Shown here one piece after another: positions 1,368 to 36,149 of a DNA stretch of 64,000 bases. The notes under the pieces are model-generated. The model saw only the letters and a program-made list of their open reading frames with translations, had not been told where the DNA came from and ran no database searches. Within the stretch, counting starts at the first letter, position 1. Each line of letters begins with the position of its first letter. The stretch comes from Rufibacter sp. LB8 (GTDB taxonomy: Bacteria; Bacteroidota; Bacteroidia; Cytophagales; Hymenobacteraceae): the NCBI RefSeq assembly GCF_014876185.1, contig NZ_JADALJ010000001.1, positions 4,031,001 through 4,095,000 of the forward strand, given 5' to 3'. Made by a program: the position numbers and the translations under genes.

Positions 1368-1383
1368 ATGCGGTTTGAATTGG

Positions 1384-5120: not shown

Positions 5121-5145
5121 GAAGCAGTTAGCGTTCTTGTGGTCA

Positions 5146-5306: not shown

Positions 5307-5349
5307 ACATCACCTTCTAAATTCAAATTCCTTTCATTCGTTTATCCTT

Positions 5350-5389
5350 CCGTTTTCGGCTCCATTTCCAGAAATGAGCCCGAAAACGG
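5350..5389. repeat. P-palindrome copy 6 of 30
   Basis: CCGTTTTCGGCTCCATTT-CCAG-AAATGAGCCCGAAAACGG. The outer stems are perfect, with a one-base slip in the inner arm. It lies between copy A of the 160-bp element and the TSUP promoter. Confidence 0.88.
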
Positions 5390-5406
5390 AAATTTTTGGG
5401 TGCCTG

Positions 5407-5437
5407 TTTGATTAGGCTTCGGTTTTGAGAATCTTTG
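5407..5437 (+). promoter_or_regulatory. Candidate housekeeping promoter of the TSUP gene
   Basis: TTTG at 5407-5410, 19-nt spacer, AATCTTTG at 5430-5437. This fits the Bacteroidota primary-sigma consensus TTTG-N19-21-TAnnTTTG with one mismatch. It overlaps the TTG at 5435, which argues for the later GTG start at 5459. Confidence 0.5.
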
Positions 5438-5458
5438 CATTCTGTTTATAAGAAGACC

Positions 5459-6217: not shown

Positions 6218-6218
6218 G

Positions 6219-6255
6219 CGTTTTTGGCCTCTGTTTTGGAAATGCGGCCCAAACC
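6219..6255. repeat. P-palindrome copy 7 of 30 (degenerate)
   Basis: CGTTTTTGGCCTC...GCGGCCCAAACC; the centre is changed to TGTTTTGGAAAT. It begins 2 nt after the TSUP stop. Confidence 0.6.
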
Positions 6256-6382
6256 AGTACTCACTTATGAGTATTCTGCCGGGCGCGTATTTGATAGTTG
6301 ATATTTTTTGCAGAAGTTAGCACCTCAATAACCTGCTTGTTCTCAGGCAGAAGAATCGTTTTTAACCCATACACATAGAAAA

Positions 6383-7495
6383 ATGAAGAATTCTTTACGC
6401 AACATGGCCAAGTGGGCTTTACCGGCGCTAGGCTTATTTCTGATGAGCTCAGGTGCGCAGGCCCAGGATGAGGTGGGGGAATTTATACGGGCCGGTAGAA
6501 GCGATGCCAATAAATTGATTCAGGCCTATGCAGAACCGGTAGGAAAATCGTTGGGCCATAGCCTGAACGGCGGTTGGTTTAACTCGGGCAAAGCCATGGG
6601 GTTGGGTAGGTTTGATATTCGGGTGTTTGGGTCTGTCACGTTCGCTCCAAAAGACGCCAAGACCTTTGACCTGGCTGGTTTGGGGCTGCAGCAGGTACGC
6701 GACGCCAACGGTAACAAATTTGCGGGCAGATCTGTTTTAACGCCCACCATTTTTGGCGAGGACAAAGACGGGCCCGGCCTTACAGTATATGCCAGAAACC
6801 CGGTGACCAACCAAGAAGAAAGAATTTCCAGCTTCAATGCACCTCCGGGCACGGGCGTGGACTTTATGCCGTTCCCAGTGGCGCAGTTGAGCGTTGGGCT
6901 TATCAAAGACACCGAGGTGGCCGTGCGGTTTGTGCCGGAAATCAAGATGGATGATTTTGAGATTAGTCTCTGGGGAGTAGGCGTGAAGCACGGCATCAAA
7001 CAATGGATTCCGGTGGTGGCCTCTATTCCTGGGTTTGATATCACCGTTTTTGGCGGGTACACTAACTTAAAAAGTGCTTACAGAGGCATTGACGTAGGGT
7101 TGGCAGATGAAGACCAGGCCTTTGCCTCTGCCCAGCAACGCAGCGCCGGGTATTATGACGGGCAAGCCATAGAACTCACCACCAAAGCCTGGACCGTAAG
7201 TTTGGTAGCTTCCAAAACCTTCAGTGTGATTACCGGCTACGCAGGTCCCAAATACAGCAACGTACAGACAGACTTGGCCGCCATTGGCAAATACCCGGTG
7301 ACCGCCTATAAAACTACGGCGCCTTTCAGATACGTGGAAGACGTGGACACGCCCGTAAATATCAGTATGAAAGACAGCCAATTTGGGTTGACAGCCGGTC
7401 TGCGCCTGAAGCTTTTGTTCTTCTCCATGTACGGTGAGTACACGTTGGCTAAATATCCTACCGCTACCGCTGGCATTGGCTTGGGTTGGAATTAA
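6383..7495 (+). CDS. Outer-membrane beta-barrel-like protein (resembles DUF6588 proteins)
   Basis: A 370-residue protein with a signal peptide (residues 1-27, ending SSGAQAQ). After a short helix (EFIRAGRSDANKLIQAYAEPVGKSLG) come many amphipathic strands rich in aromatic and glycine residues, such as GRFDIRVFGSVTF, VAQLSVGLIKDTEVAVRFVPE, FDITVFGGYTNL and LRLKLLFFSMYGEYTLA. The last residues, GIGLGWN, end on an aromatic followed by Asn rather than Phe. The layout fits a family of Bacteroidota outer-membrane proteins of unknown role; the DUF number is from memory and is not certain. The gene stands alone with a good terminator 20 nt downstream. No partner gene suggests a substrate. Confidence 0.7.
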   Translation: MKNSLRNMAKWALPALGLFLMSSGAQAQDEVGEFIRAGRSDANKLIQAYAEPVGKSLGHSLNGGWFNSGKAMGLGRFDIRVFGSVTFAPKDAKTFDLAGLGLQQVRDANGNKFAGRSVLTPTIFGEDKDGPGLTVYARNPVTNQEERISSFNAPPGTGVDFMPFPVAQLSVGLIKDTEVAVRFVPEIKMDDFEISLWGVGVKHGIKQWIPVVASIPGFDITVFGGYTNLKSAYRGIDVGLADEDQAFASAQQRSAGYYDGQAIELTTKAWTVSLVASKTFSVITGYAGPKYSNVQTDLAAIGKYPVTAYKTTAPFRYVEDVDTPVNISMKDSQFGLTAGLRLKLLFFSMYGEYTLAKYPTATAGIGLGWN

Positions 7496-7512
7496 GCTGC
7501 AACGCACTAAGT

Positions 7513-7556
7513 AAAAAAGAGCGCCCCTGTAGAAATGCAGGGGCGCTCTCTTTTAT
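7513..7556 (+). terminator. Terminator after the barrel protein gene
   Basis: AGAGCGCCCCTG pairs with CAGGGGCGCTCT over 12 bp. A flanking A-run and CTTTTAT follow. The rest of the 7496-7830 gap holds only the SusC promoter region. Confidence 0.88.
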
Positions 7557-7738
7557 GCTTTGCTAGTTAACATAAAAATGTAACTAGTGGCCCTTGTTTT
7601 TTATTACTTGTCTGCAGCACTTAAATGCACCCTATATATAATAGAGTGAGGGCATTCTTAAAAAGTGTTTTTGGGTTTGTTTTAACCTGCGGTACTATAG
7701 CTGGCAGGAGGGAGCACAACGAACCAATAAGTGTTCAT

Positions 7739-7768
7739 ATTGTTTATATTCTTCTAAAAATATATTTG
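7739..7768 (+). promoter_or_regulatory. Candidate promoter of the first susCD pair
   Basis: ATTG at 7739-7742, 18-nt spacer, TATATTTG at 7761-7768, which matches the -7 consensus TAnnTTTG exactly. The predicted start of transcription is about 55 nt before the susC ATG. Confidence 0.5.
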
Positions 7769-7830
7769 AAGTTACTATATAATCAGTATCTTGAGCATTA
7801 AATCCATCTATTAACTAACCAAAAAAACAC

Positions 7831-10800
7831 ATGAAGAAAGCTTTACTATTTAGCTTCGTTCTAATGTTGACACTTGTGGGACGAGTGTGGGCACAGGAAC
7901 GGACGGTTACCGGAAGGGTGACTGATGCACAGACAGGCGAGGGAATGCCTGGTGTGACAGTTCAACTCAAGGGAACCAGCACTGCATCCCCCACAGATGT
8001 GAACGGTAATTATTCTATTGCGGTGCCTTCTGGCAGCGGTACGTTGGTGTTCTCTTTCATTGGGTACAGAAACCAAGAGGCTTCTATTGGCTCACAGTCT
8101 ACCATCAATATTAGAATGGCACTTGATTCTGAAATCTTGAATGAAGTGGTGGTAACGGCCATGGGTATTCAGCGGGACAAAAAAGATCTGGGTTACTCAG
8201 TAGGTACCGTAAGCGCTGAAGACCTCACCATTGGTAGACCCACCAACGTGGTAAACGCCCTTTCTGGTAAAGTGGCGGGTGTAAGAACTTCTAGTGGTAG
8301 CGGTATGGTAGGTGCCTCCGCAGGTATCTTTATCAGGGGCAACACTACTTTCACGGGTAGCAACCAGCCACTGTTTGTAGTGGATGGCGTTCCTATTGAC
8401 AATGGTGGTGGTACAAATGCCCTGCAAAACGGGGTGGCTAACTCTAACCGCGCCATTGACCTTAACCAAGATGACATTGAGTCTATCAACATTTTGAAAG
8501 GACCAGCCGCCGCTGCACTATATGGTTCACGCGCCGCTTCTGGCGCGGTGATTATCACTACCAAAAAAGGCAAGGCAGGTCAGAAAACCAGAGTGGAGTA
8601 CAATACCTCTTACAACTTAGTTGAGGTGAACAGATTCCCAGATTGGCAAAATGAATATGCTCAAGGAAATAATGGTGTCTTTAACCCACGTGGTAACTTG
8701 TCCTGGGGTCCAAGAATCGCCGGTCAACTTGAAACCAATTATTTAGGAGTACAAGAACCCCTTACGGCCTACCCAGATAACATTAAAGATATCTTTAAAA
8801 CGGGCAACAATTTCCAAAACACTATTGCCTTGAGCGGTGGCGGCGAAACTGCTACTTATCGTTTATCTTATGGTAACACCAAAGAAAATGGTGTTCTTGA
8901 TAATAATGAGTTGCAAAGACACAACTTTACCTTTAATGGATCTGCAGACATTACCCCTAAACTTCATTCAGGTGTAAGTGTGCAGTACATTAATTCCACC
9001 TCAAAGCGTTCTCAGCAAGGAAACCAATTGTCTAATCCTTTCTTTAGAGGTTGGTTTATTCCACGCAACATTAATCTAACTGGTAATCCATTTGAAGATG
9101 CAGAAGGAAATTCAGTTTATTTTGATGCGGTAGATAACCCTTACTGGACCATCAAAAACAATACGTATGATGATGAGGTGAACCGTGTCATTGGTAACGT
9201 AAACTTCAGCTATGACATTCTTCCTTGGTTAACTGCCAATTACAGAATTGGTGTGGATACGTACAACCAAGTAGAGCAGGGGTATGACCAAATTGGAGCC
9301 ATTGGTGGTAGCATCAACGCCGGAGGAACTGGTGGTCTCTATGACAGAAGCTATACCAACACCAACATCAACTCCAACTTCATATTGGCAGGCCAACACA
9401 AATTTGGCACTGATTTCACCTTAGGGTATAACTTGGGTAATGAAATAATTTCAGGAAGCTGGAATGATATCAATACCCTTGGTTACTCTTTAGGAATCAG
9501 AGACCTGCGGAACATCTCTAACGCTGCAGAGCAATTTGGTCAGAATTCAAGATCCCAAGGCCGGTTAGTTGGCTTCTTTGGAGATGTGACTATTGGCTAC
9601 AAAAGCTTTGTAACTTTAAACGTAACTGGTAGAAATGATCACTCTTCTACTTTTGGTGAGTCTGAAAACTCTTATTTCTATCCTTCTGCTGCGCTTAGCT
9701 TTGTCCTTACAGAAGCTTTCCCGGTCTTGAAGAATAATGTTGTGGAGTTTGCGAAGGTAAAAGGTAACTATGCCAAAGTAGGAAAAGAGGCCCCAAGGTA
9801 TTCAACCAATACTTATTTCTTGCAGCCTGCCCCGGCAGACGGTTTTGGCCCTGCCATTAGTTTTCCTTATAACGGACTTGGCGGTAGAACTTTAGATGAC
9901 GCTTCAGGAGATCCTAACCTAAGACCAGAGTTTACTACTTCAAAAGAAGTTGGTCTTGAAATGCAATTCTTTAAAAACAGACTTGGGTTTGAATTCAACC
10001 TGTATGAAACCAAATCTGAAGACTTGATCTTTGCCGTTCCAATCGCTTCTTCTTCCGGGTTCTCTTCCCAAGTTAAAAATGCCGGTTCTTTAAGAAACAG
10101 AGGTATTGAGTTAATGGTGAATGTATCTCCTATTAAATCAGCTGATTTTACCTGGGATTTGACGTTCAACTTCAATAAGAACAAATCTGAAGTGTTAGCC
10201 TTGGCAGAAGGTGTTCCAAACATCTTTTTGGCAGGGTTTACCACTCCAAACATTCGGTTAGAGGCTGGCCAGCCTTATGGTGTCATGTATGGAACTGTAT
10301 TTAACAGAAACGCATCAGGTCAATTGTTAATTAACCCAACAACTGGTTTGCCTTCTGTTAGCCCTATTACAGCAAAGATTGGTGATACCAACCCAGATTG
10401 GACAGGTGGTGTGATCAACAACTTCAATTTCAAAGGAATTAATTTGAATTTTGTGGTTGATGTTAGAAAAGGCGGAGATGTTTACTCTAGAAATAACGGT
10501 GACTTGAGAAGAAGTGGTGCCCTTATGGAATCTACAAAGTTTAACAGGTTTAACTCAGACGGAACGTTAGCAACTCCTTACGTGTATGATGGTGTATATG
10601 CTGATGGTACTAGAAACACAAAAGCAATCACCACGCAGCAATACTTTCAATCTCTCCATACGGCAGGTGAAAGTTATGTGTATGATGCCACTTGGGTGCG
10701 TTTGAGAGAAGCTTCCTTAAGCTATGGGTTGCCTGCTAATCTGCTTCAGAAAACGCCATTCGGCCGAATTGAAGTTGGTTTAAATGGAAGAAACCTTCTT

Positions 10801-10932
10801 TTGTGGGCTCCTAACTTCCCAAATTTAGATCCTGAGAATAACACATTAGGTGTTAGCAACGCGCAAGGATTTGAGTTCAATGGTCTTCCACAGACTAGAT
10901 CATACGGGGCATTTTTAAGAATTACCTTATAA
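7831..10932 (+). CDS. SusC/RagA-family TonB-dependent outer-membrane transporter
   Basis: A 1033-residue outer-membrane transporter that, with its SusD lipoprotein, takes up oligosaccharides, peptides or similar nutrients using TonB energy. Seen: a signal peptide (1-22), a carboxypeptidase-D-like plug extension (RTVTGRVTDAQTGEGMPGV... at 24-98), the plug with EVVVTAMGIQRDKKDLG, the family signature QPLFVVDGVPIDN, SINILKGPAAAALYGSRA, and a long barrel ending in ...GAFLRITL. The length is usual for SusC. The gene is followed after 10 nt by its SusD. No degradative enzyme or anti-sigma gene is adjacent, so the substrate is unknown. The first ~90 residues are nearly the same as those of the second SusC at 12948. 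Confidence 0.95.
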   Translation: MKKALLFSFVLMLTLVGRVWAQERTVTGRVTDAQTGEGMPGVTVQLKGTSTASPTDVNGNYSIAVPSGSGTLVFSFIGYRNQEASIGSQSTINIRMALDSEILNEVVVTAMGIQRDKKDLGYSVGTVSAEDLTIGRPTNVVNALSGKVAGVRTSSGSGMVGASAGIFIRGNTTFTGSNQPLFVVDGVPIDNGGGTNALQNGVANSNRAIDLNQDDIESINILKGPAAAALYGSRAASGAVIITTKKGKAGQKTRVEYNTSYNLVEVNRFPDWQNEYAQGNNGVFNPRGNLSWGPRIAGQLETNYLGVQEPLTAYPDNIKDIFKTGNNFQNTIALSGGGETATYRLSYGNTKENGVLDNNELQRHNFTFNGSADITPKLHSGVSVQYINSTSKRSQQGNQLSNPFFRGWFIPRNINLTGNPFEDAEGNSVYFDAVDNPYWTIKNNTYDDEVNRVIGNVNFSYDILPWLTANYRIGVDTYNQVEQGYDQIGAIGGSINAGGTGGLYDRSYTNTNINSNFILAGQHKFGTDFTLGYNLGNEIISGSWNDINTLGYSLGIRDLRNISNAAEQFGQNSRSQGRLVGFFGDVTIGYKSFVTLNVTGRNDHSSTFGESENSYFYPSAALSFVLTEAFPVLKNNVVEFAKVKGNYAKVGKEAPRYSTNTYFLQPAPADGFGPAISFPYNGLGGRTLDDASGDPNLRPEFTTSKEVGLEMQFFKNRLGFEFNLYETKSEDLIFAVPIASSSGFSSQVKNAGSLRNRGIELMVNVSPIKSADFTWDLTFNFNKNKSEVLALAEGVPNIFLAGFTTPNIRLEAGQPYGVMYGTVFNRNASGQLLINPTTGLPSVSPITAKIGDTNPDWTGGVINNFNFKGINLNFVVDVRKGGDVYSRNNGDLRRSGALMESTKFNRFNSDGTLATPYVYDGVYADGTRNTKAITTQQYFQSLHTAGESYVYDATWVRLREASLSYGLPANLLQKTPFGRIEVGLNGRNLLLWAPNFPNLDPENNTLGVSNAQGFEFNGLPQTRSYGAFLRITL

Positions 10933-10942
10933 TCAATTTAAA

Positions 10943-12433
10943 ATGAAGAGATTTAAACATATAACCGCTGGACTTTTGGCTGCTTTTATGCTGTCAGTAA
11001 GTTCTTGTGATGAATTCCTAGATGTTAACCAAGACCCTAATAGCCCCACCAAGGCTCCTATTTCACAGGTCTTGACAAGTGCTACCGTAAGTACTGCGTT
11101 TGTGAATGGCAGTGATTTGCACCGCTATACTTCACTATTGATGCAGCAACTTTCTGGGCAGGCGGGTAATACTGTTCAAACCAGGTTCTACCAGCAATAT
11201 TTGATTCAGCCTTCTGACTTGAACGGAATGTATGATCAATATTATGTTACTGTATTGCCAGATTTGCAGTATGTAATAGATAACAGCGCTGGTAGTCCTC
11301 ATTACACAGGAGTTGCTAAAATTTTGAAAGGATTCGCTTTTTCCCAGGTAGTAGATGTTTGGGGAGACGTGCCTTTTAGTGAGGCTTTGAAAGGTACTGA
11401 AAACTCTACCCCAAAAGTAGATGATGATGCAGCTATTTATACTGCCATTATTAGCTTACTGAATGAAGGCATAGCAGATGTCAAAAATCCCACATCTGTT
11501 TTAACGCCTGGCGATGATGAAACTATTTATGAGGGAGACTTGGTGAAATGGGAGAAATTTGCCAATTCTTTAAAACTGCGTTTGTTCCTTAAATATAGTG
11601 AGGTGAACCCAGCATTTGCAAAAGCGCAAATGGATGCTTTGATTGCCACTGGTGGCCCTTTCATGACATCAAATGCTGATAATTTTGAAATGGATTTTTC
11701 CACTACACAAGGTGCGCAAAACCCAATTCATCAATTTGAAGTGGAACGTCTCAATTATTTGTTTCCTAATAAGTTTCTAGTAGACTTAATGAACAGCAAA
11801 GCTGATCCAAGAAGACAAAGCTTCTTTACAGACTTTCCTTTCAATTCTGGACAGTATAAAGGTGCGGCAGCTGGCGATGAAGAGTCAATCAACTTTTCAA
11901 GGCTACACACTTATTTGAGAGGCGACTTGAATGCAGCCATCACCCCAAATGCAGCAGGAGCTATTGCGGCTAACGCAGCTTACAATAATGCCTACAACGG
12001 TGATGCCCCTATTAGAATGATGACATTTGCTGAGTATAACTTCATAAGAGCTGAGCATGCCTTGCGGTTTGGCGGAGGTTTAGCAACGGCTGTCCCATTT
12101 TATGAAGCTGGTATACGCGCTTCAATGACAGATGCCGGAGTAACTACTGCAGCGCAGACAGCTTATTTATTGGCAAATCCATTATTAGCAACGAACACGC
12201 TCAGACAAATTATTGAGCAGAAGTATATTGCAAATTATGGAGTAGCCCTGGAGCCTTGGAATGATTGGAGAAGAACTGGTTTCCCAGCTATTTCGCCGGT
12301 ACCAGCTTCACTTGCAGCTACAGACTACATTCCTAGAACTCTGTACTACCCAGAGGCAGAAACCCTTACCAACCCTAATGTGAAGCAGAAGCCTGACATG
12401 AAAGTAAGAGTGTTCTGGGATACCAGACCATAG
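10943..12433 (+). CDS. SusD/RagB-family nutrient-binding lipoprotein (SusD-like_2 type)
   Basis: A 496-residue lipoprotein with signal and lipobox SVSSC (C22) followed by DEFLDVNQDPNSPTKAP, the opening typical of the SusD-like_2 subgroup. The middle is helical with TPR-like segments (VAKILKGFAFSQVVDVWGDVPFSEAL), and the C-terminal part carries IIEQKYIANYGVALEPWNDWRRTGFP, the characteristic end region. It would cap the SusC barrel encoded 10 nt upstream and bind the imported ligand at the cell surface. The pair forms a two-gene operon closed by the terminator at 12497. Base composition here looks more AT-rich than in the flanking housekeeping genes. Confidence 0.94.
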   Translation: MKRFKHITAGLLAAFMLSVSSCDEFLDVNQDPNSPTKAPISQVLTSATVSTAFVNGSDLHRYTSLLMQQLSGQAGNTVQTRFYQQYLIQPSDLNGMYDQYYVTVLPDLQYVIDNSAGSPHYTGVAKILKGFAFSQVVDVWGDVPFSEALKGTENSTPKVDDDAAIYTAIISLLNEGIADVKNPTSVLTPGDDETIYEGDLVKWEKFANSLKLRLFLKYSEVNPAFAKAQMDALIATGGPFMTSNADNFEMDFSTTQGAQNPIHQFEVERLNYLFPNKFLVDLMNSKADPRRQSFFTDFPFNSGQYKGAAAGDEESINFSRLHTYLRGDLNAAITPNAAGAIAANAAYNNAYNGDAPIRMMTFAEYNFIRAEHALRFGGGLATAVPFYEAGIRASMTDAGVTTAAQTAYLLANPLLATNTLRQIIEQKYIANYGVALEPWNDWRRTGFPAISPVPASLAATDYIPRTLYYPEAETLTNPNVKQKPDMKVRVFWDTRP

Positions 12434-12496
12434 TAGTTATTGAATCACAACTTTCTGTGTTGTGAGTGGCAAACGCCAGTTATGAGACAGGAGATG

Positions 12497-12527
12497 AAAG
12501 GCCTTCCAGCAATGGAAGGCCTTTTTT
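12497..12527 (+). terminator. Terminator of the first susCD operon
   Basis: AAAGGCCTTCCA-GCAA-TGGAAGGCCTTTTTT, a perfect 12-bp stem plus T-tract. Confidence 0.92.
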
Positions 12528-12574
12528 GTTTACAGGAAGTTAGACGGCAGAATAAATCCTGCGCTTTTCTGGGT

Positions 12575-12612
12575 CGTTTTCGGGCTCATTTCTGAAAATG
12601 AGCCCGAAAACG
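12575..12612. repeat. P-palindrome copy 8 of 30
   Basis: A perfect 17-bp stem CGTTTTCGGGCTCATTT with loop CTGA. It lies 48 bp beyond the susCD terminator, so transcription has already ended here. Confidence 0.92.
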
Positions 12613-12625
12613 GCGGCTTCTGTTT

Positions 12626-12895
12626 ATGTCAAGAAAACAAGCAACGCTGAAATCTGTCAAAAACGGCTGCCAGCTACTATTTGGTAGTACTAAACATAAG
12701 GCAGTCTTGCTAAAAGTTGGTAATAGAAAAGATACCAAAGTATTCATTCTCTGCGATATGGGATCGGGTTTTTGTCAGAATATACAGGAAGAAGGATATT
12801 TGTTTACAGGCAGGGCCTTGTACGAGTTTGCAGCTGTTATGGCTGAATACCCAAATAAAATTTTAGTTAATAATTTGTTAATACCCTTTGGTTGA
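12626..12895 (+). CDS. Doubtful short open frame
   Basis: An 89-residue frame starting at ATG 12626, 13 nt after a palindrome. No domain is recognised; it is basic and lacks a signal peptide. Its 3' end overlaps the -33 box of the next susC promoter (12874-12877) and its stop touches the -7 box. It may be a small regulator, a decayed gene or chance. I keep it because it is the only sizeable frame in the 12434-12947 gap. Confidence 0.3.
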   Translation: MSRKQATLKSVKNGCQLLFGSTKHKAVLLKVGNRKDTKVFILCDMGSGFCQNIQEEGYLFTGRALYEFAAVMAEYPNKILVNNLLIPFG

Positions 12896-12904
12896 TTAAA
12901 TTTG
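12874..12904 (+). promoter_or_regulatory. Candidate promoter of the second susCD operon
   Basis: TTTG at 12874-12877, 19-nt spacer, TAAATTTG at 12897-12904: a full match to the Bacteroidota consensus in both boxes and spacing. The susC ATG lies 44 nt further on. Confidence 0.7.
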
Positions 12905-12947
12905 GTTATCAATCAAAAGTATCTCTACAAACAAACACAAAAACCAC

Positions 12948-15900
12948 ATGAAGAAAGCTTTACTTTTCAGCTTCGTTTTTGTACTAGCGCTTGTGACACA
13001 AGCCTGGGCACAAAGCCGGACTGTAACAGGACGAGTGACTGACGCAACCACAGGAGAGGGAATGCCTGGCGTTACAGTTCAACTCAAAGGTACCAGCACT
13101 GCCGCACCAACCGGCATTGATGGCAGTTACTCCATCAGTGTGCCCAGTGCGGGCGGAACATTGGTGTTCTCTTTCATTGGCTATACCAGCCAGGAAATTG
13201 CGCTGGGAAGCCAGTCAACCGTTAATGCACGCTTAGCAACTGACGCTCGTCAGATTTCTGAGATTGTGGTAACGGGTTATGGCGTTCAGCAAAAGCGAGA
13301 GGTTACCGGTGCAATTGCTCAGGTAAACGGCGCCTCTATCCAAAACCAGCCAATTCCATCACTTGACAAAGCGCTACAAGGTAGAGCTGCGGGTGTGGTT
13401 GTTCAGTCTGCCTCTGGTATACCAGGTGGTGCCGTGAACGTGCAAATTAGAGGGGTTGGTTCAGTAAATGCCAACAGTTCACCGCTTTACATTATTGACG
13501 GTGTGCAAATTAACACTACCACTGGTAGAGTTGCCTACACATCGGCCAACCCATTGGCGTCTATCAACACCAATGATATTGAGTCTATTGAGGTAATCAA
13601 AGATGCGGCAACTGCTGCGGTTTATGGTTCTCAGGCAGCTAACGGTGTAGTAATCATTACTACTAAAAGAGGTAAGGCTGGAAGAACTCAGTTCACGGCT
13701 AACTATTACACAGGTGTTTCTGAAGCATTGAAGAAGTTTGATGTATTGAACACTCAGCAATACTATGCATTGAGAACAGAGGCATTCAGAAATGCCAATA
13801 ACCCTGCTGGTGCAAGAGCAAACGTGCTATCTGAGATGGGCCTTGATCCAAATACCACAGATGCACAAATTGCCGCGTTGCCAACGTATGACTGGCAAGA
13901 TATTGCTTTCAGAACTGGCGTAGTTAATAACTACGAGCTTTCTGCCCGTGGTGGTACAGACAAAACTACCTTCTATATCTCTGGTGGTTTTAACAAGCAA
14001 GAGGCTATCATGACTGCGGCTGACTTTACCAGAGCGTCTATGAAATTGAACCTTGACCACGCTGCAACAGATAAATTAGGTTTTGAAATGTCTGTGAACT
14101 TGGGTAGAGTAAGCCAAGTGGCTCCTTTCTCAACTTCTGGATCTTCATTGGGTAGCCCATCTTTTGCGAGCAGCTTAATCTTGCCTAATAACCCTGTTAG
14201 AAAAGAAGATGGCACGTACTTTGGTTTAGCTGGTGCAACTCCAAGATTTGCCGGTATTTTGAACCAGAACATTGCTTCTGTAAACGAATACTCTACTGGT
14301 AACCAAGAGAATAACTCTTTATTGGGGTCATTTGCTGCTACTTATAAAATTTTGCCAGGCTTATCTTTCAGATCTAGCTACAGCATTGACTACAGCAACA
14401 TCAACGCTGACTTCTATTATGACCCAAGAACTCCAGACGGGTTTGCTAACAGAGGTGATGCCTACAAAGCTTCTGACTGGAACACTAACTTCCAGACAGT
14501 ACAGTTGCTTTCTTTTGGAAAGACGTTTGCCGATGTGCACAAAGTAGATGCTCAGGCTGGTTTTGAATACAGAACTGATGAGCGTTCTTCTTTCTCAGCT
14601 AACTCCCGTGGTTTTGCCACGCCAGAGTTCCGTACCCTTGGTGCTGGTAGTACGCCTGTTTCAACCGGTGAAGGCTACACAGGTTACAAGAGAACTGGTG
14701 GTTTCGGTTCTGTTAACTACTCTTTCAAAGGTAAGTATACCTTGAGAGGTATCTTGTCTTATAACGGTTCTTCCCGCTTTGGTCAGAATTACCAGTTTGG
14801 TTTCTTCCCAGGTGTAGCCGCTGGTTGGAATATCTCAGAAGAGAATTTCATGAAAGGCATGACATGGTTAAACTCTCTGAAATTGAGAGCAAGCTGGGGA
14901 CAGAATGGTCGTGATGGTATTGGTGACTTTACTGCACGTGCCCTTTATGCTAACGCCGGTGTTTACAATGGTAACCCAGCTATTGCTCCTGCAGGTTTGC
15001 CAAACACAGAGTTGAAGTGGGAAGTACGTACCATGCTTGACATGGGTATTGATTTCGCCTTGTTCGGTAACAGAGTTTCTGGTACTATCGGTGGTTTCAT
15101 AGAAAAGAATGATGACTTGTTGTTTTCTTTGCCTCTGCAACAAACTACTGGTTTCGGATCAGTATTAGTGAACATTGGTGCCTTGGAGCAAAAAGGTCTT
15201 GAGTTTGAATTGAATACTGTAAACTTAGATTTCTCTGGGTTCCAATGGAGATCAAACTTCAACATCACGTACATCAAAAATGAAGTAACCAAACTTTACA
15301 ACGGTCTTAAGAACTTGCCAGATTATTCACTGATTGTAGGTGAAGACTTGGGTGTTATCTATTCTTACGAGTATGCCGGCGTTAACCCAGCTACTGGTAG
15401 ACCAATGTGGTACAACGGTGCCGGTGATCCTACTTACGTTGTAGCAGCTGCTACCGACCGTAAATTAATTGGTTCTACCTTGCCTAAAGTTACTGGTGGT
15501 TTTGAGAATACCTTCAGCTACAAAGGCTTAGATCTTGCTATCATGTTCCAGTACCAGTATGGAAGAACACAGTTTGATGGTCAGTACGGGTTCTTGATGG
15601 AGAACGGTAACCGTGGTTTTAACACGTTACTTGATTTGTATGAGAGAAGATGGACAACTCCTGGTCAGATTACTGATGTTCCTAGAGCATATAATGGTGG
15701 TGCTGAGACAGGTGGTAACAACCATGCTATTGCTTCTACCCGCAATTATTTCAAAACTGACTATGTCAGATTGAAAAACGTGCAATTAGGTTATAACCTT
15801 CCAGCAGGTTTGCTTTCTAGAACTAGAGTATTGAATACTGCCAGAGTATATGTACAAGGAACCAACTTGTTCACCTATGATGACTTCCCTGGTTATGACC

Positions 15901-15977
15901 CTGAGTTCTTCGGAACTGCCACTGGTATCATACCACAGTCTAAGAATGTGACGTTTGGTGTACAATTAGGATTTTAA
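12948..15977 (+). CDS. SusC/RagA-family TonB-dependent outer-membrane transporter
   Basis: 1009 residues. Signal peptide 1-22, CNA-like extension RTVTGRVTDATTGEGMPGV (24-98), then SEIVVTGYGVQQKREVTGAI, the usual start of a SusC plug. The plug carries SSPLYIIDGVQINTTTGR and SIEVIKDAATAAVYGSQAANG, and a barrel follows to the C-terminus ...SKNVTFGVQLGF with terminal Phe. It is TonB-powered import through the outer membrane, paired with the SusD 11 nt downstream. The operon also holds a surface lipoprotein, and an S9 peptidase follows, which hints at peptide substrates; this is inference from neighbourhood only. The N-terminal ~90 residues closely match the SusC at 7831 while the barrels differ. 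Confidence 0.95.
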   Translation: MKKALLFSFVFVLALVTQAWAQSRTVTGRVTDATTGEGMPGVTVQLKGTSTAAPTGIDGSYSISVPSAGGTLVFSFIGYTSQEIALGSQSTVNARLATDARQISEIVVTGYGVQQKREVTGAIAQVNGASIQNQPIPSLDKALQGRAAGVVVQSASGIPGGAVNVQIRGVGSVNANSSPLYIIDGVQINTTTGRVAYTSANPLASINTNDIESIEVIKDAATAAVYGSQAANGVVIITTKRGKAGRTQFTANYYTGVSEALKKFDVLNTQQYYALRTEAFRNANNPAGARANVLSEMGLDPNTTDAQIAALPTYDWQDIAFRTGVVNNYELSARGGTDKTTFYISGGFNKQEAIMTAADFTRASMKLNLDHAATDKLGFEMSVNLGRVSQVAPFSTSGSSLGSPSFASSLILPNNPVRKEDGTYFGLAGATPRFAGILNQNIASVNEYSTGNQENNSLLGSFAATYKILPGLSFRSSYSIDYSNINADFYYDPRTPDGFANRGDAYKASDWNTNFQTVQLLSFGKTFADVHKVDAQAGFEYRTDERSSFSANSRGFATPEFRTLGAGSTPVSTGEGYTGYKRTGGFGSVNYSFKGKYTLRGILSYNGSSRFGQNYQFGFFPGVAAGWNISEENFMKGMTWLNSLKLRASWGQNGRDGIGDFTARALYANAGVYNGNPAIAPAGLPNTELKWEVRTMLDMGIDFALFGNRVSGTIGGFIEKNDDLLFSLPLQQTTGFGSVLVNIGALEQKGLEFELNTVNLDFSGFQWRSNFNITYIKNEVTKLYNGLKNLPDYSLIVGEDLGVIYSYEYAGVNPATGRPMWYNGAGDPTYVVAAATDRKLIGSTLPKVTGGFENTFSYKGLDLAIMFQYQYGRTQFDGQYGFLMENGNRGFNTLLDLYERRWTTPGQITDVPRAYNGGAETGGNNHAIASTRNYFKTDYVRLKNVQLGYNLPAGLLSRTRVLNTARVYVQGTNLFTYDDFPGYDPEFFGTATGIIPQSKNVTFGVQLGF

Positions 15978-15988
15978 TTAGCTCCAAA

Positions 15989-17488
15989 ATGAAAAATAGA
16001 TTTTTATATAGAATAAGTACGGTTGCACTGGCAGCCGGGATGGTATTCTCTACCTTTTCCTGCGAAGAACTGTTAGATATACAACCTAAAACGTCAATTG
16101 ACGGTGGTACGGCATTAACATCTAGATCTGCTGTTGAAGCTGCTATCAATGCAGCCTACACACCACTTAAAGCATTGACTTTGTATGGTAACAGAATGAT
16201 CACATTGCCTGAGGCTCTTTCAGACAATGGATTGGCTACAAACAAGTCAGGTCGTTTAGTTACAGAAGCACGTAATGCCGTAGGTGCGCATTTTACCCAT
16301 TGGGCTACCTCTTATAATGCCATTCAGCGCATCAATCTAGTGTTAGATGCACTGCCTGGTTTAAGTGACCCATCTGTGACAGCTGCAGACAAAGATGCTT
16401 TTATTGGTGAGTTGAAGTTTTTGAGAGCATTGTATCACTTTGATTTGGTACGTTCTTACGCCTATATCCCAGGTGCAATAGTTGATTCTAAAAACTTTGG
16501 CGGTGTTCCGGTAATCACGCAAACCTTTAAGTCTGGGCCAGAAGCAGCTGCCTTTTTGCCTTCCAGACCAACTATTGATGCTACGTATGCAGCCATTTAT
16601 GCAGACTTAGATGAAGCAGTTGCCAAATTGGGAGCCTTTACCACCGCAGGTAAAGCCTCTAAAGTAGCAGCCCAAGCACTTTATTCTAGAGTAGCTCTTT
16701 ATAAAAGAGACTATCCTAAAGTGATTGAGATGTCAAATGCTGTTATTACAGCTAGAGGTGCCTCTTTGGTGAATGCCGCTAACTATTTGAAGAGCTGGAC
16801 AGATCCTACTAACCCAGAAACTATTTTCCATGTTGCCTTTTCAACGCCTGCAGAAAGCCAAGGTGTGAATGAGTCTCTGCAGACTGCCTTCACTACATTG
16901 GTAACTCGTGGTAACCGTGCGCAAACAGGTGGATTTGGTGACTTGGTTCCTACCACTACATTGTTAAATGAGGTGGGTATCACTGTCACTGGTAACGGAA
17001 CTTCTACCGCGGCCATTACTGCTAGAACTGGTGATGTGCGTAACCTGCTATTTGAGGTTGGTACTGCTGGTAGAGGTAACCCTTATGTAGAGTCTACTAA
17101 GTTCATTGGTAAGAGCGGAGCTATCAACTTAGATAACGTGCCTGTTTTGCGTATTTCTGAGATGTACTTGAACCGCGCTGAGGCTTATGCTAACACCGCT
17201 GGTGGTGAAGTAAGTTCTTTGGCAGATGTGAACACTATTCGTACAAATAGAGGGTTAACTGCTTCTGCAGCCACAGGTACAGCATTAATGGCTGAGATTA
17301 TGTTGCAACGCAGATTGGAGTTTGCTTTTGAAGGTCACAGATTCTTTGACCTGAAGCGTTTAGGCATGGATATCTCTAAGCCAGCACTAGGTACCACCCT
17401 GTTGTTTTCAGATAACGTTATTTTAGCTGGTCTGCCTGCTAATGAGGTAGCTGGTAACCCTAATCTGAAGCAAAACCTGGGCTATTAA
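15989..17488 (+). CDS. SusD/RagB-family nutrient-binding lipoprotein
   Basis: 499 residues. Lipobox FSTFSC (C25) is followed by EELLDIQPKTSIDGGTALTS, the usual SusD opening. The TPR-like helical core includes FLRALYHFDLVRSYAYIPG, and the C-terminal RagB signature region reads LNRAEAYANTAGG ... LMAEIMLQRRLEFAFEGHRFFDLKRLG. It is the surface partner of the SusC encoded 11 nt upstream. The next gene begins 12 nt after the stop, so these are co-transcribed. Confidence 0.95.
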   Translation: MKNRFLYRISTVALAAGMVFSTFSCEELLDIQPKTSIDGGTALTSRSAVEAAINAAYTPLKALTLYGNRMITLPEALSDNGLATNKSGRLVTEARNAVGAHFTHWATSYNAIQRINLVLDALPGLSDPSVTAADKDAFIGELKFLRALYHFDLVRSYAYIPGAIVDSKNFGGVPVITQTFKSGPEAAAFLPSRPTIDATYAAIYADLDEAVAKLGAFTTAGKASKVAAQALYSRVALYKRDYPKVIEMSNAVITARGASLVNAANYLKSWTDPTNPETIFHVAFSTPAESQGVNESLQTAFTTLVTRGNRAQTGGFGDLVPTTTLLNEVGITVTGNGTSTAAITARTGDVRNLLFEVGTAGRGNPYVESTKFIGKSGAINLDNVPVLRISEMYLNRAEAYANTAGGEVSSLADVNTIRTNRGLTASAATGTALMAEIMLQRRLEFAFEGHRFFDLKRLGMDISKPALGTTLLFSDNVILAGLPANEVAGNPNLKQNLGY

Positions 17489-17500
17489 TTTTAACTAGAC

Positions 17501-18055
17501 ATGAAGAAATTATTATATTTATTTGCGTTTATAGCGTTAACGCTAAACTCGTGTATAGAAAACGAGGAGATTCTTTGGGAACAACCAATGGTTGAGTTTG
17601 ATGCAGCCGCCTACCATGGGTATTCAACCATAGGGGGTGTTTCAAAGGACTATACCTTGTTGACTCGTCGTCCGCAGTATGGTAGAACTACGTTGACTAC
17701 TGCTACTGCAAGTTTCCCAGCCGACACAGTAATCACTAGAAACTGGGCTGCTACCAATGGTGTTTTCAGATTACGTGTTAATTTGGTTGGGCCACAAAGG
17801 CCAGATGCTACGGAGGTTACGTATGTTGTGGTAGCTGCAGAAACCAATGCAGTAGCTGGTACGCATTACGGTACGCTTTCTGGTAGAGTGACCATTCCTG
17901 CTAACTCTAGCTTTGGCTACGTGGAGATTCCAATTCTGAACTCAGGCGTTTCTTCTGCCACGGCAGCTGACCTTGTGCTGGAATTACGTGGAAACGATAG
18001 TGTGAAGCCTAGCCCTAAATATGACCGAATAGGAATTAGAATAAGCCAGTTATAA
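17501..18055 (+). CDS. Surface lipoprotein of a susCD operon
   Basis: 184 residues. The signal peptide ends TLNSC (lipidation at C18) and is followed by acidic IENEEILWEQP. Beta-rich segments such as FRLRVNLVGPQRPDATEVTYVVV and AGTHYGTLSGRVTIPANSS resemble the Calx-beta/DUF4843-like domains found in lipoproteins encoded after SusD. Such accessory lipoproteins (SusE/F analogues) sit at the cell surface and assist ligand capture. The gene starts 12 nt after susD and ends the operon at the terminator at 18073. The exact family is uncertain. Confidence 0.7.
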   Translation: MKKLLYLFAFIALTLNSCIENEEILWEQPMVEFDAAAYHGYSTIGGVSKDYTLLTRRPQYGRTTLTTATASFPADTVITRNWAATNGVFRLRVNLVGPQRPDATEVTYVVVAAETNAVAGTHYGTLSGRVTIPANSSFGYVEIPILNSGVSSATAADLVLELRGNDSVKPSPKYDRIGIRISQL

Positions 18056-18072
18056 ATAACTGCTAAGAAGTT

Positions 18073-18107
18073 GAAGCCCTAGAAGATTTTCTAGGGCTTC
18101 TTTTTTT
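18073..18107 (+). terminator. Terminator of the second susCD operon
   Basis: GAAGCCCTAGAA-GATT-TTCTAGGGCTTC followed by seven T residues. Confidence 0.93.
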
Positions 18108-18113
18108 ATATTT

Positions 18114-18275
18114 AGAGCTTGTTTAAATTTTGATTTTGCAGGCGAAAGATGGGAGCGAAAGGTTCTGGCGAAGCCGTTTTTGAGCAGCATAGCAGCGCTA
18201 TGGTGAGAAAAAATGGTGAAGTCAGGTTCTTTTGATACCATTTTGCAGCGCAAAAGAAAAATTTAAACAAGCTCT
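18114..18275. repeat. 160-bp inverted-terminus element, copy B
   Basis: Left end AGAGCTTGTTTAAATTTTG, right end AAATTTAAACAAGCTCT: a perfect 17-bp inverted repeat. The interior matches copies A and C (GGTTCTGGCGAAGC, GAGCAGCATAGCAGCGCTA). TATATT occurs on both flanks (18107 and 18276) and could be a target duplication, though the region is low in complexity. It fills nearly the whole gap before the S9 peptidase. Confidence 0.88.
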
Positions 18276-18298
18276 TATATTCCAATTAACCTAGCAAA

Positions 18299-20671
18299 AT
18301 GAAGACAACACTTATTTGTCTACCTGTCGGGCTATTTTTGTGGCTTTCTTCTATAGTCGCAGTTGCTCAAACCAAACCGGTCCTTACCGTTGATAAAATC
18401 ATGCAAGACCCTGCCCAATGGGTAGGCACGTCCGCGTCGGCTATCTTTTGGTCAGAAGATGGAAAAAAAGTCTATTTCCAGTGGAACCCTGAGAAAGCCA
18501 AACGTGACTCTTTGTATGCCGCCACTGTGCGTGATGGAAAAATATACAAAGTTGCTAGCGCAGAACGGCAAAGTATCCAGAATACGGGAGGCACCTTCAA
18601 TCAGAGTAAAACCCTAAGGGTATATGAACGCAGCGGTGATCTTTTCCTGGTGAATGTAAAAGCTGGCACCACAACCCAAATCACCAATACCGTTGACCGG
18701 GAAAGCGCTCCTTCCTTCACCTTTGATGGCAAAAGTGTTTCCTTTTTGAAAGACAACAATTTATTTATTTGGGATATTGGCACCGGGCAATTAAAGCAAA
18801 TCACTGACTTTAGAAGAGGAAGAAAACCTGCTGACCCAGATAACATCAAAGACAAGCAGGAACTGGCTCTCCGTAATGAACAAGGGAAACTCCTCCAGAT
18901 TATTCAAAAAAGAGAGGAAGAACGCGTGCTACAGCGAACTTCCCAGAAGGCCGCGGCTAAAAACCGCCCGAAGGAAATCTACCTGGAAGATAAGACAGTT
19001 GACAATGTAGTGCTGAGCCCAGACAATAGGTTTGTCACTTATAGGTTGGTGTCCAGGCCAGCCGGCAGCAAAATAGCCCAGGTCCCAAATTATGTCACGG
19101 CATCTGGGTATACCGAAGATATTCCAACCCGCACCAAAGTAGGGGCGGCTCAGGCCACCTATGAGATGGCCGTCTATGACAGACAATTAGATACTACCTT
19201 TCAGGTTGCTTTCAAGGCATTGCCAGGTATAACTCAAAAGCCGACCTTTTTAAAAGCAACAAAGGCAGACTCTTTGAATGCTGGTGCAGCCTCTGCTAAA
19301 AAGGTCATGTTGTTTGGCCCCTATTACGCCCCAGACGGAAAACGTGCTGTAGTGATTGCCCGGTCACAAGACAATAAAGACAAATGGATCATAGGTTTTA
19401 ACCCGGCCACGCGCGCGATTAATGTACTGAACTATTTACATGATGAAGCCTGGGTAAACGGTTTTGGTCCCGGGGAATTTGGCTGGATGCCAGACAATGA
19501 AAGATTCTGGTTCGTTTCTGAGGAAAGCGGCTATGCGCACCTGTATACCGTTCATGCGCAGACAGGGGAGAAAAAAGCCTTAACCTCCGGTGCGTTTGAA
19601 GTGCAGAATGTAAAAATGTCGGGTAATCAGAGATACTGGTATTTTACGGCTAACAAAACCCATCCGGGGGAGCAACATTTTTATAGAATGCCCGTGGTGG
19701 GTGGTGCCATGGAACAAATCACCACCGCGCCTGGTGCCCATGAAGTCACCATGTCTCCTAAAGAAGATATGCTGGCCATTAGGTACTCGTATTCAAACAA
19801 GCCTTGGGAATTGTATCTCATGCCGAATAAGCCCGGTGCCAAACCCGTAAAGATTACCCAGTCCACTACCGCGGAGTTTAACAGTTACCCGTGGCGGGAA
19901 CCCGAGGTGATTTCTTACAAGGCGGTCGACGGCGCTAACGTATATGCCCGTTTGTACAGGCCAGAAAAGCAAGATCCCAACAAGCCCGCAGTAATTTTTG
20001 TGCATGGCGCTGGTTATTTACAGAACGCCCATAAATGGTGGAGTACCTATTTCAGGGAATACATGTTTCATAACCTGCTTGCAGACCTGGGGTACACCGT
20101 ACTGGACATTGACTACCGGGGCAGTGCCGGCTACGGCCGCGATTGGCGGACTGGTATTTACCGGCACATGGGCGGTAAAGATTTAAGTGACCATGTAGAC
20201 GGCGCCAAACTGTTAGTGGAGAAATACGGCGTGAACCCAAAGAATATAGGCATTTACGGTGGTTCCTACGGGGGCTTCATTACGTTAATGGCCATGTTCA
20301 CCCAACCAGATGTCTTCGCAGCGGGAGCTGCCTTACGGTCTGTGACAGACTGGGCACATTACAACCATGGCTACACGTCCAATATCCTCAATGAGCCGCA
20401 GACAGACACGTTGGCCTATACCCGTAGTTCCCCAATTTACTTCGCGGAAGGGCTGAAAGGGGCATTGCTCATGTGCCACGGCATGGTAGACACAAATGTG
20501 CATTTCCAGGATATTGTGCGCTTGTCACAGCGCTTGATTGAGCTGAAGAAGGAGAATTGGGAACTGGCCGTGTATCCAGTAGAAGACCATGGCTTTACAG
20601 AACCCTCTAGCTGGACCGATGAATACAAACGGATTCTGAAACTGTTTGAGACCAATCTCCGGAAACCCTAA
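18299..20671 (+). CDS. S9-family prolyl oligopeptidase / dipeptidyl-peptidase IV-like
   Basis: 790 residues with a signal peptide (1-23, ending IVAVAQ), so probably periplasmic. An N-terminal beta-propeller occupies roughly 40-520, with WD-like strands such as FTFDGKSVSFLKDNNLF and WIIGFNPATRAINVLN. The alpha/beta hydrolase domain follows with PAVIFVHGAG, DYRGSAGYGRDWR and the nucleophile elbow GGSYGGF (Ser656). The likely catalytic Asp731 is in GMVDTNVHF and His764 in EDHGF. The family removes dipeptides or short peptides from N-termini, usually after proline. It follows the susCD-lipoprotein operon but has a terminator and copy B of the 160-bp element between, so it may be transcribed separately, perhaps from within or beside that element. 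Confidence 0.92.
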   Translation: MKTTLICLPVGLFLWLSSIVAVAQTKPVLTVDKIMQDPAQWVGTSASAIFWSEDGKKVYFQWNPEKAKRDSLYAATVRDGKIYKVASAERQSIQNTGGTFNQSKTLRVYERSGDLFLVNVKAGTTTQITNTVDRESAPSFTFDGKSVSFLKDNNLFIWDIGTGQLKQITDFRRGRKPADPDNIKDKQELALRNEQGKLLQIIQKREEERVLQRTSQKAAAKNRPKEIYLEDKTVDNVVLSPDNRFVTYRLVSRPAGSKIAQVPNYVTASGYTEDIPTRTKVGAAQATYEMAVYDRQLDTTFQVAFKALPGITQKPTFLKATKADSLNAGAASAKKVMLFGPYYAPDGKRAVVIARSQDNKDKWIIGFNPATRAINVLNYLHDEAWVNGFGPGEFGWMPDNERFWFVSEESGYAHLYTVHAQTGEKKALTSGAFEVQNVKMSGNQRYWYFTANKTHPGEQHFYRMPVVGGAMEQITTAPGAHEVTMSPKEDMLAIRYSYSNKPWELYLMPNKPGAKPVKITQSTTAEFNSYPWREPEVISYKAVDGANVYARLYRPEKQDPNKPAVIFVHGAGYLQNAHKWWSTYFREYMFHNLLADLGYTVLDIDYRGSAGYGRDWRTGIYRHMGGKDLSDHVDGAKLLVEKYGVNPKNIGIYGGSYGGFITLMAMFTQPDVFAAGAALRSVTDWAHYNHGYTSNILNEPQTDTLAYTRSSPIYFAEGLKGALLMCHGMVDTNVHFQDIVRLSQRLIELKKENWELAVYPVEDHGFTEPSSWTDEYKRILKLFETNLRKP

Positions 20672-20695
20672 GTTTCCGGCAAAGGTGAAAATATT

Positions 20696-20739
20696 TTCCG
20701 TTTTCGGGCTCATTTCCAGAAATGAGCCCGAAAACGGAA
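20696..20739. repeat. P-palindrome copy 9 of 30 (perfect)
   Basis: A perfect 20-bp stem: TTCCGTTTTCGGGCTCATTT, loop CCAG, then its complement. It is the reference copy for the family and starts 24 nt after the S9 peptidase stop. Confidence 0.95.
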
Positions 20740-20829
20740 AGTACAGATTGGTGCTTCCAATTCAAGACTACTTTCAGCGCAAGTTTATAGGAAACCTTTG
20801 ATGCGGTACCCAAAGCCGTACAATCTTAA

Positions 20830-20870
20830 AACAGCAGAGCCGACTACATTTGGAGTCGGCTCTGCTGTTT
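20830..20870. terminator. Bidirectional terminator, S9 peptidase / PAP2 genes
   Basis: AACAGCAGAGCCGACT pairs with AGTCGGCTCTGCTGTT (16 bp). The trailing T-run is shared with the left end of palindrome copy 10. Confidence 0.85.
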
Positions 20871-20902
20871 TTGGCTTCATTTCCAGAAATGAGGTCAAAA
20901 AC
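20867..20902. repeat. P-palindrome copy 10 of 30 (contains a stop codon)
   Basis: GTTTTTGGCTTCATTT-CCAG-AAATGAGGTCAAAAAC, type II arms. Read on the minus strand, its right arm gives CGT TTT TGA, the last two codons and stop of the PAP2 gene. The same R-F-stop end occurs at copy 5. Confidence 0.9.
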
Positions 20903-24117: not shown

Positions 24118-24156
24118 GCGTTTTCGACCTCATTTCATAAAAAGAGCCCCAAAACG
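24118..24156. repeat. P-palindrome copy 11 of 30 (strongly diverged)
   Basis: GCGTTTTCGACCTCATTTC is a good left arm; the right arm (AAGAGCCCCAAAACG) is merged into the metK terminator. Probably an old copy. Confidence 0.5.
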
Positions 24157-27028: not shown

Positions 27029-27072
27029 TTCTGTTTTCGGGCTCATTTCCAGAAATGGACCCGAAAACAGAA
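27029..27072. repeat. P-palindrome copy 12 of 30
   Basis: TTCTGTTTTCGGGCTCATTT-CCAG-AAATGGACCCGAAAACAGAA. The outer pair TTCTG/CAGAA differs from copy 9 (TTCCG/CGGAA) but stays complementary. It is in a divergent promoter region. Confidence 0.9.
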
Positions 27073-36105: not shown

Positions 36106-36149
36106 TTCCGTTTTCGGGCTCATTTTCAGAAATGAGCCCGAAAACGGAA
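36106..36149. repeat. P-palindrome copy 13 of 30 (perfect)
   Basis: A perfect 20-bp stem TTCCGTTTTCGGGCTCATTT with loop TCAG, followed by TTTTTG, so here it could end aroE transcription. 51 nt after the stop. Confidence 0.95.

Follow-up and report, generated by a model that had tools for sequence, protein, structure and literature searches.

REPs are short extragenic palindromes that lie mostly in convergent and tandem gaps near 3′ ends, according to parts of one report (PMC3733652). Sections of another describe REP classes with more than 1,000 perfect copies per genome, classes specific to a clade, and a switch at orthologous RAYTs that may have led to older REPs being partly replaced (PMC3686654). 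Palindromes also lie near Y1 genes in the TnpA_Y1 subclass 2.6 structures of Bacteroidetes (PMC6006769, in part), and the DNA uptake sequences of the Neisseriaceae come in dialects (PMC3630211, in part). How REPs evolve, as selfish DNA, as RAYT cargo or by gene conversion, is an old question, and a very dense family with no shown RAYT link bears on it.

Here we describe such a family in Rufibacter sp. LB8, based on a 64-kb stretch of its DNA (the window), further stretches of the same genome and related genomes. The palindromes are best read, from their sequence, as one genus-specific family of REP-like repeats, and this family is an unusual relative of the known REPs. An Rfam search of the window gave no match, and no report of a Rufibacter palindrome family was found in the open-licence literature; PMC12306157, PMC6006769 and PMC13155455 do not mention Rufibacter in their main texts.

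Extent, anatomy and spelling of the palindrome family

In the window, 30 palindrome sites differ from GTTTTCGGGCTCATTT-N4-AAATGAGCCCGAAAAC at no more than 9 of 32 positions, the same number of sites that a sequence-only reading had counted. That reading had also placed perfect 20-bp inner stems at 20696 and 36106, which we verified, and at least five copies in divergent regions, of which the five it named lie at 2424, 27033, 45863, 49542 and 53262. The sites are listed below, with mismatches out of 32; strand is unassigned for all of them.

371-406: copy, 7 mismatches
460-495: copy, 6 mismatches
1184-1219: copy, 3 mismatches, in an extended imperfect hairpin (1175-1228)
2424-2459: copy, 3 mismatches, divergent gap
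5084-5119: copy, 5 mismatches, overlapping the stop codon of ORF 2518-5091
5352-5387: copy, 3 mismatches
6220-6255: copy, 8 mismatches, 2 nt past the stop of ORF 5435-6217
12576-12611: copy, 0 mismatches
20700-20735: copy, 0 mismatches, 28 nt past the stop of ORF 18299-20671, in hairpin 20692-20743, whose RNA fold is predicted at -37.1 kcal/mol
20867-20902: copy, 6 mismatches, overlapping the end of a terminator-like hairpin (20828-20871)
24120-24155: copy, 4 mismatches, convergent gap
27033-27068: copy, 2 mismatches, divergent gap
36110-36145: copy, 0 mismatches, 55 nt past the stop of ORF 35317-36054, an end occupied in 14/15 congeners
37261-37296: copy, 5 mismatches, within the 5′ part of ORF 36889-38505 as called; the real start of this ORF probably lies further downstream
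39286-39321: copy, weak, 8 mismatches, 3 nt past the stop of ORF 38917-39282, upstream of uvrB
41474-41509: copy, 5 mismatches, 27 nt past the uvrB stop
41760-41795: copy, 4 mismatches, 3′ end of the xdh operon, adjoining an intrinsic terminator
45863-45898: copy, 4 mismatches, divergent promoter region
49542-49577: copy, 4 mismatches, divergent gap
49793-49828: copy, 7 mismatches
51306-51341: copy, 4 mismatches, convergent gap
53262-53297: copy, 3 mismatches, divergent gap
53630-53665: copy, 6 mismatches; its 18-bp stem is perfect and its arm, GGCCTG, is congener-like
56421-56456: copy, 1 mismatch, 9 nt past the stop of ORF 53757-56411
57795-57830: copy, 8 mismatches
58205-58240: copy, 5 mismatches
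58901-58936: weak match with 8 mismatches that lies within ORF 58272-60512 (a P-type ATPase gene) and perhaps outside the family
62404-62439: copy, 5 mismatches
62876-62911: copy, 4 mismatches
63736-63771: copy, 1 mismatch

In a sample of 864 kb of the LB8 genome, made up of the window plus 40 further 20-kb stretches, 345 copies have at most 9 mismatches, and the reversed pattern gave 10 matches only, all at 12 mismatches. The sequence-only reading was to fall if the genome held no more than a few dozen copies. It holds more, since a degenerate pattern (GTTTTNGGNYTNNTTT-N4-mirror, up to 2 mismatches) has 1,737 sites in the whole genome (4.75 Mb, two contigs) and 0 for the backwards control. 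The density, which that reading had called far beyond an ordinary terminator family, is high, but there is a precedent in the REP classes with more than 1,000 perfect copies per genome that parts of PMC3686654 report.

All 15 Rufibacter congeners tested carry the element, in 40 to 1,619 degenerate-pattern copies each; congener G007, for example, has 1,054 elements. Outside the genus, 42 of 43 genomes have no match and one has a single match.

On contig C2, each of two stretches read (40 kb in all) has a single copy, compared with about 8 per 20 kb elsewhere. Two stretches of contig C1 are perhaps acquired islands: L058 (G000:C1:120001-140000, G000 being the LB8 genome) is low in GC (36%) and has one element, and L072 (G000:C1:3480001-3500000) has normal GC and no element despite 8 called gaps of at least 60 bp.

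The window holds other repeats as well. A second intergenic family (GACCTCGTAGTGTGCGCAGCTCCTACGAG...) occurs at 41688-41742, 47200-47254 and 49670-49724, with 18 matches in the 864 kb of LB8, 19 in 300 kb of congeners and 2 in 400 kb of sister genera. A recurring terminator-like hairpin, CCTCACAGGTTT...AAACCTGTGAGG, lies at 51257-51293 and 49744-49780 (18 matches in the LB8 sample, 14 in congeners, 0 in the sister-genus regions read), and a repeat of about 160 bp, at 5146-5306 and 18114-18275, has 6 matches in the LB8 sample and 0 in the congener regions read.

The unit of the palindrome family is 36 bp long, GTTTT...AAAAC, with a weaker symmetric extension TTTCC/GGAAA. Its outer GTTTT and central TTT/AAA are near-invariant and the middle of each arm is variable; most copies have a YCAG-like centre of four bases or its complement (138 in one sense, 111 in the opposite sense, 96 neither). 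With at most one mismatch at the ends, spans of 36, 35, 34 and 37 bp number 309, 23, 2 and 0 in LB8; for the other Rufibacter sequence read the corresponding numbers are 94, 21, 0 and 5. Part of the 35-bp class may be a register slide. Short-spaced forms (24-25) look like register artefacts in which an inner T run was taken as the outer one (15 examples, by eye), and we discarded them.

Solo arms with at most one mismatch number 0, against 311 arms within elements; at 2 mismatches there are 6, against 429. Close pairs are rare, with spacing below 100 bp in 2 of 302 neighbour intervals of the LB8 sample where 14 are expected. An unpaired GTAG or CGTC end tag was not seen in the flank profile, which shows the symmetric TTTCC/GGAAA.

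The LB8 spelling TCGGGCTCATTT (at most 3 mismatches) has 1,113 forward and 1,075 reverse matches in its own genome; per congener, forward matches number 0 to 11 and reverse matches 0 to 12. The commonest LB8 arm, GTTTTCGGGCTCATTT, accounts for 174 of 664 arms, against 6 of 72 and 10 of 70 for the commonest arm of G013 and G007 (GTTTTTGGCCTGTTTT) and 9 of 74 for that of G006 (GTTTTGGGCCTGTTTT). A strong shared spelling is thus clear for the LB8 genome and found there only. Among the arms printed for G009 none is repeated, and a looser GGCCTG-type spelling is common to the congeners read.

Arms are linked in whole-unit subfamilies: one symmetric arm pair occurs 17 times versus 2.6 expected, and one asymmetric pair 23 times versus 12.4. 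Whole units were therefore copied by some means. Independent shuffling of arms, which per-position pairing had suggested, was dropped once this linkage appeared.

LB8 and G013 are, by eye, near-identical upstream of a thioredoxin-like gene, element included (L034 about 1950-2450, L133 about 2600-3100; the element differs by one letter), although the two genomes are otherwise unlike in spelling.

Placement and retention at operon ends

Placement was scored with our own rough gene caller (648 genes in the 864 kb), which misses genes (10943-12433 is one example, and many are lost in low-GC stretches like L058) and may place some starts too early. Among gaps of at least 60 bp, these calls put the element in 67 of the 77 convergent ones, 156 of the 282 tandem ones and 19 of the 81 divergent ones (convergent versus divergent, Fisher p = 1.5e-16), so the earlier statement that it occupies nearly every intergenic gap was too strong. 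Element density is 3.13 per kb in convergent, 1.61 in tandem and 0.69 in divergent gaps. For tandem and convergent copies, taking the nearer stop for the latter, the median distance past the stop codon is 35 nt and the commonest bin is 0-10. The centres of 22 of 342 copies fall in called genes, some of these probably with miscalled starts. The loop has no orientation bias relative to transcription (77 against 61, p = 0.20).

The element marks the ends of transcription units, and can serve as a sequence marker of operon ends in Rufibacter.

We read 20 kb around uvrB in each of 15 congeners. Four LB8 gene ends in this region bear the element, and 54 of 58 corresponding congener ends have one within 200 nt: 15/15 at uvrB, 14/15 at gene 35317-36054, 14/15 at xdh and 11/13 at gene 38917-39282. 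The last of these, upstream of uvrB, is a weak case because the left arm is partly the T run of a terminator. At the xdh end the element sits at the same spot in 12/15 congeners. For eleven LB8 ends without an element, 15 of 155 congener ends have one, nine of them at gene 47261-49513. The background of the same detector is 267 of 3,000 random congener windows, 9 of 3,000 with the reversed pattern and 1 of 3,000 sister-genus windows. The palindrome is absent from all 20 sister-genus uvrB regions, and in one sister genus (genome G017) it is found at 0/6 ends, where four of the matching LB8 ends have one.

With random stretches added, the comparison of G013, G007 and G006 with LB8 covers 64 ends (17 with the element in both, 3 + 2 discordant, 42 with neither), which are non-independent because the uvrB region is counted in all three. 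Outside that region there are 26 ends (7 both, 0 + 2 discordant, 17 neither). G009, which has few elements, agrees poorly with LB8 (the element is in both at 1 end and in neither at 8, and 5 ends are discordant).

Among nearer species, eight pairs, which are not independent, gave a partner in 48 of 58 element comparisons, with inner bases 67% identical. In the 27 cases where one flank is at least 75% identical, the inner bases are 71% identical versus 88% for the better flank, a comparison in which choosing the better flank favours the flank. In congeners, orthologous ends keep the element and its inner letters change.

Retention extends to a divergent gap: at 45863, between the 5′ ends of two genes, all 15 congeners have an element (16/16 species), by a tighter detector that matched 0 of 3,000 sister windows. 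With many operon-end places kept in 16 species and a spelling that differs in LB8, homogenisation of a dispersed repeat can be tested site by site.

Between uvrB and xdh, tracts in G001, G011 and G005 (L089, L078, L088) reach 93-94% identity beside about 76%, which looks like recent exchange between species.

Possible roles: RNA hairpin, DNA site or terminator

Eight window copies have predicted RNA hairpins of -17.2 to -37.1 kcal/mol. Across the LB8 sample the predicted means are -21.5 kcal/mol for convergent copies (n = 93), -20.5 for tandem copies near a 3′ end (n = 122), -18.2 for far tandem copies (n = 76) and -13.9 for divergent ones (n = 26); the two 3′ classes pooled are stronger than the divergent class (p = 1.8e-4). 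In other Rufibacter, convergent (-17.5, n = 52) and near-tandem copies (-15.9, n = 81) both exceed divergent ones (-14.9, n = 25), and far tandem copies are weakest (-13.0, n = 29). Of the roles that the sequence-only reading had put forward, a REP-like one linked to 3′ ends agrees with these stronger predicted hairpins, with the order convergent over tandem over divergent, and with operon-end positions kept across the genus.

Within LB8 copies, the outer bases (-5 to -1) pair above the level of shuffled arms (z = 6.4), and the inner 11 bases pair no better than shuffled arms (z = 0.8, or 2.7 with G-U pairs). At the uvrB end, inner pairs (z = 4.5) covary among the 16 species and so do outer pairs (z = 5.7; 0 of 2,000 shuffles). 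Inner pairing gives z = 0.4 at gene 35317-36054, 2.2 at xdh (13 species) and 2.3 at the divergent gap. These shuffles leave the relatedness of the species in place, and some rows may be misplaced because the detector is loose (32 to 157 of 3,000 sister-genus windows of 45 to 190 nt match). Pairing thus appears to be clearly kept only at the uvrB end, and weak or absent at the three other sites.

We read the palindromes as a genus-specific, REP-like family of operon-end RNA hairpins, rewritten in this lineage by some copying process, and hold this reading with evenly balanced confidence. Copies would have been established at transcription-unit ends early in the history of Rufibacter and kept there since. 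Transcribed at mRNA 3′ ends, the element would fold into predicted hairpins of 16 to 25 bp, which may block 3′-to-5′ exonucleases, thereby setting and stabilising the 3′ end of the mRNA; in some cases it would form the upper part of an intrinsic terminator hairpin. The LB8 copies have in common a spelling absent from congeners, so a copying process, gene-conversion-like or dependent on some mobiliser, may have rewritten or re-amplified them. The strongest facts are the genus limit, the private spelling, the operon-end placement and the positional retention; from sequence we infer the protection of RNA 3′ ends and the copying mechanism.

Several observations go against this reading. The near-fixed length of 36 is not demanded by hairpin function alone, and the divergent-promoter copy kept in 16/16 species is unlikely to lie in an mRNA 3′ end. 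Further points are the inner-arm z of 0.8, the weak or absent cross-species pairing at sites other than the uvrB end, the unoriented loop, the disagreement of G009, and a shared spelling that is strong only in LB8. It is possible, and we put it forward tentatively, that the genus keeps hundreds to more than 1,000 operon-end palindromes in fixed places, most of them rewritten in this lineage to a private spelling by a transposase-independent process. This would be a concerted evolution of dispersed 36-bp sites, perhaps with an RNA- or DNA-binding reader that follows the spelling.

The main rival to the RNA-hairpin reading is a DNA site, because of the near-fixed length, the weak pairing at three of four sites and the divergent copy of 16 species. 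The cruciform or protein-binding site that the sequence-only reading had considered may likewise draw on this length and on the divergent copy at 45863. Two inverted half-sites (GTTTT.GG..TC or TG.TTT) between transcription units would serve a genus-specific nucleoid or boundary protein, or gyrase-type topology, and the spelling would follow changes in the bound protein. A near-fixed spacing fits such a site, as do a motif kept without clear pairing at three of the four orthologous sites, arms that never occur alone, the absence of orientation with transcription and the divergent-promoter copy kept throughout the 16 species. The preference for convergent gaps fits too, for positive supercoils meet there. 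Against this rival stands the greater strength of predicted RNA hairpins at 3′ ends compared with divergent gaps. It has no candidate protein so far, and more than 1,000 sites would be hard to rewrite after a single protein. We consider it doubtful.

That the element is simply the intrinsic terminator hairpin of Rufibacter is unlikely. The placement at operon ends would suit a terminator, but the ends GTTTT...AAAAC are the reverse of an A-stem-T order, and the excess of T-tracts is modest at best. In the direction of transcription, 49 of 183 tandem copies have a T-tract after them. The corresponding numbers are 32 of 183 for the antisense side of these copies, 38 of 174 for convergent sides and 373 of 1,980 for random intergenic places in LB8. 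The share after the element is 27%, versus a background of 18-19%. Most copies have no terminator T-tract, and the element is not a general terminator. The earlier view that this is no ordinary terminator family therefore largely stands, with the modest T-tract excess left over.

Counts of classical terminators depend on the detector. A first, stricter count at LB8 convergent ends gave 45/119 with the element and 6/35 without, in favour of a terminator; a second gave equal shares, 39/104 and 12/32, and the two disagree on whether the element goes with terminators. LB8 tandem ends have terminators at 27/105 with the element and 19/73 without, and sister genera at 16/38 convergent and 18/64 tandem ends. 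The idea that the element replaced terminators is unsupported by the sister-genus convergent share of 16/38 set beside the LB8 shares of the second count. At element ends the reversed terminator control is inflated, since the palindrome read backwards is itself a stem with T's after it. A promoter and terminator scan of 1-20000 found 26 terminator-like sites, near the shuffled mean of 22.8.

In other Rufibacter the terminator share at convergent ends is 35/68 with the element and 7/46 without, in line with copies built into terminator hairpins. Indeed, at the uvrB end of several congeners (e.g. G003, G004, G008, G013 and G014) the element makes up, by eye, the upper part of a hairpin with T-rich sequence after it, and many of the 20 sister-genus uvrB regions, where the palindrome is absent, show an ordinary terminator by eye. 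These observations favour the terminator reading; the T-tract counts and the equal shares in LB8 weigh against it.

Y1 transposases and comparison with known repeats

The sequence-only reading had also considered mobile DNA with a cognate transposase. A miniature element mobilised by a transposase (RAYT/REP or MITE) and recently spread in this lineage would explain the high copy number and private spelling, as well as the linked whole-unit subfamilies (17 versus 2.6 expected for one arm pair). There are six Y1 (RAYT-type) transposase hits in the LB8 genome, and 0 to 6 in congeners. However, G007 has 0 Y1 hits despite its 1,054 elements, Y1 number and element copy number show no correlation (rho = 0.27, p = 0.31), and copies stay at orthologous places.

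The 26 Y1 loci read (14/16 species, two loci overlapping) have 0.51 elements per kb versus 0.40 in the LB8 genome. Elements lie on both sides within 450 nt at 3/26 (L032, L135, L139), and L139 has seven elements; these two-sided loci speak a little for a RAYT link. At 8/26 (two overlapping) a different, GTTCGGGATTGGTAAATCCCGAAC-like palindrome lies near the Y1 gene. Similar flanks exist somewhere for 145 of 329 elements, with no peak of similarity next to the element. Overall, the Y1 hits of 16 species and these loci do not establish a RAYT link, and RAYT as the mobiliser is unsupported by the element-bearing genome without Y1, the rho and the densities. We judge this explanation quite improbable.

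In several Rufibacter species, Y1 genes flanked by palindromes of their own (GTTCGGGATTGGTAAATCCCGAAC and relatives) are found, at L034 400-1250, L035, L133, L136, L141, L144, L146 and L150. Palindromes of this type are perhaps the RAYT-linked REP set of Rufibacter.

A DNA uptake sequence with species dialects would account for the private spelling and high copy number, but with 0 solo half-sites at up to one mismatch and 22 of 342 copies centred in called genes, some probably miscalled, it has next to no likelihood.

Among known systems, the GTAG/CGTC-tagged, RAYT-linked REPs of Pseudomonas, Stenotrophomonas and E. coli, as far as the cited sections cover them, resemble the Rufibacter element in being short extragenic palindromes with up to more than 1,000 copies, convergent and tandem placement near 3′ ends, and clade-specific classes. 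The Rufibacter element, in contrast, shows neither a GTAG/CGTC tag nor a RAYT association. Its units are single where REPINs and BIMEs are dimers, and its dyad is longer, near-fixed at 36 bp, with positions kept across 16 species. We keep the two apart because an end tag, a consistent link to a cognate RAYT and frequent close pairs were looked for in Rufibacter and not found.

The TnpA_Y1 subclass 2.6 structures, in the portions consulted, share the phylum and the palindromes near Y1 genes. Here, however, the palindromes at 8/26 Y1 loci are GTTCGGGATTGGTAAATCCCGAAC-like and not the 36-bp element. The Neisseriaceae dialects, on the same partial basis, are likewise a genome-wide repeat that differs between related species, whereas the Rufibacter element is palindromic, extragenic and without solo half-sites.

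Intrinsic terminators share the hairpin at operon ends, but the element mostly lacks a T-tract and is found at ends with and without classical terminators. Finally, Higgins et al. (1988), as cited in PMC12306157 and PMC2267715, reportedly saw REPs as mRNA stabilisers that evolve by gene conversion. The Rufibacter family would resemble REPs of that kind in both its proposed 3′-end role and its homogenisation, each of which its sequence suggests.
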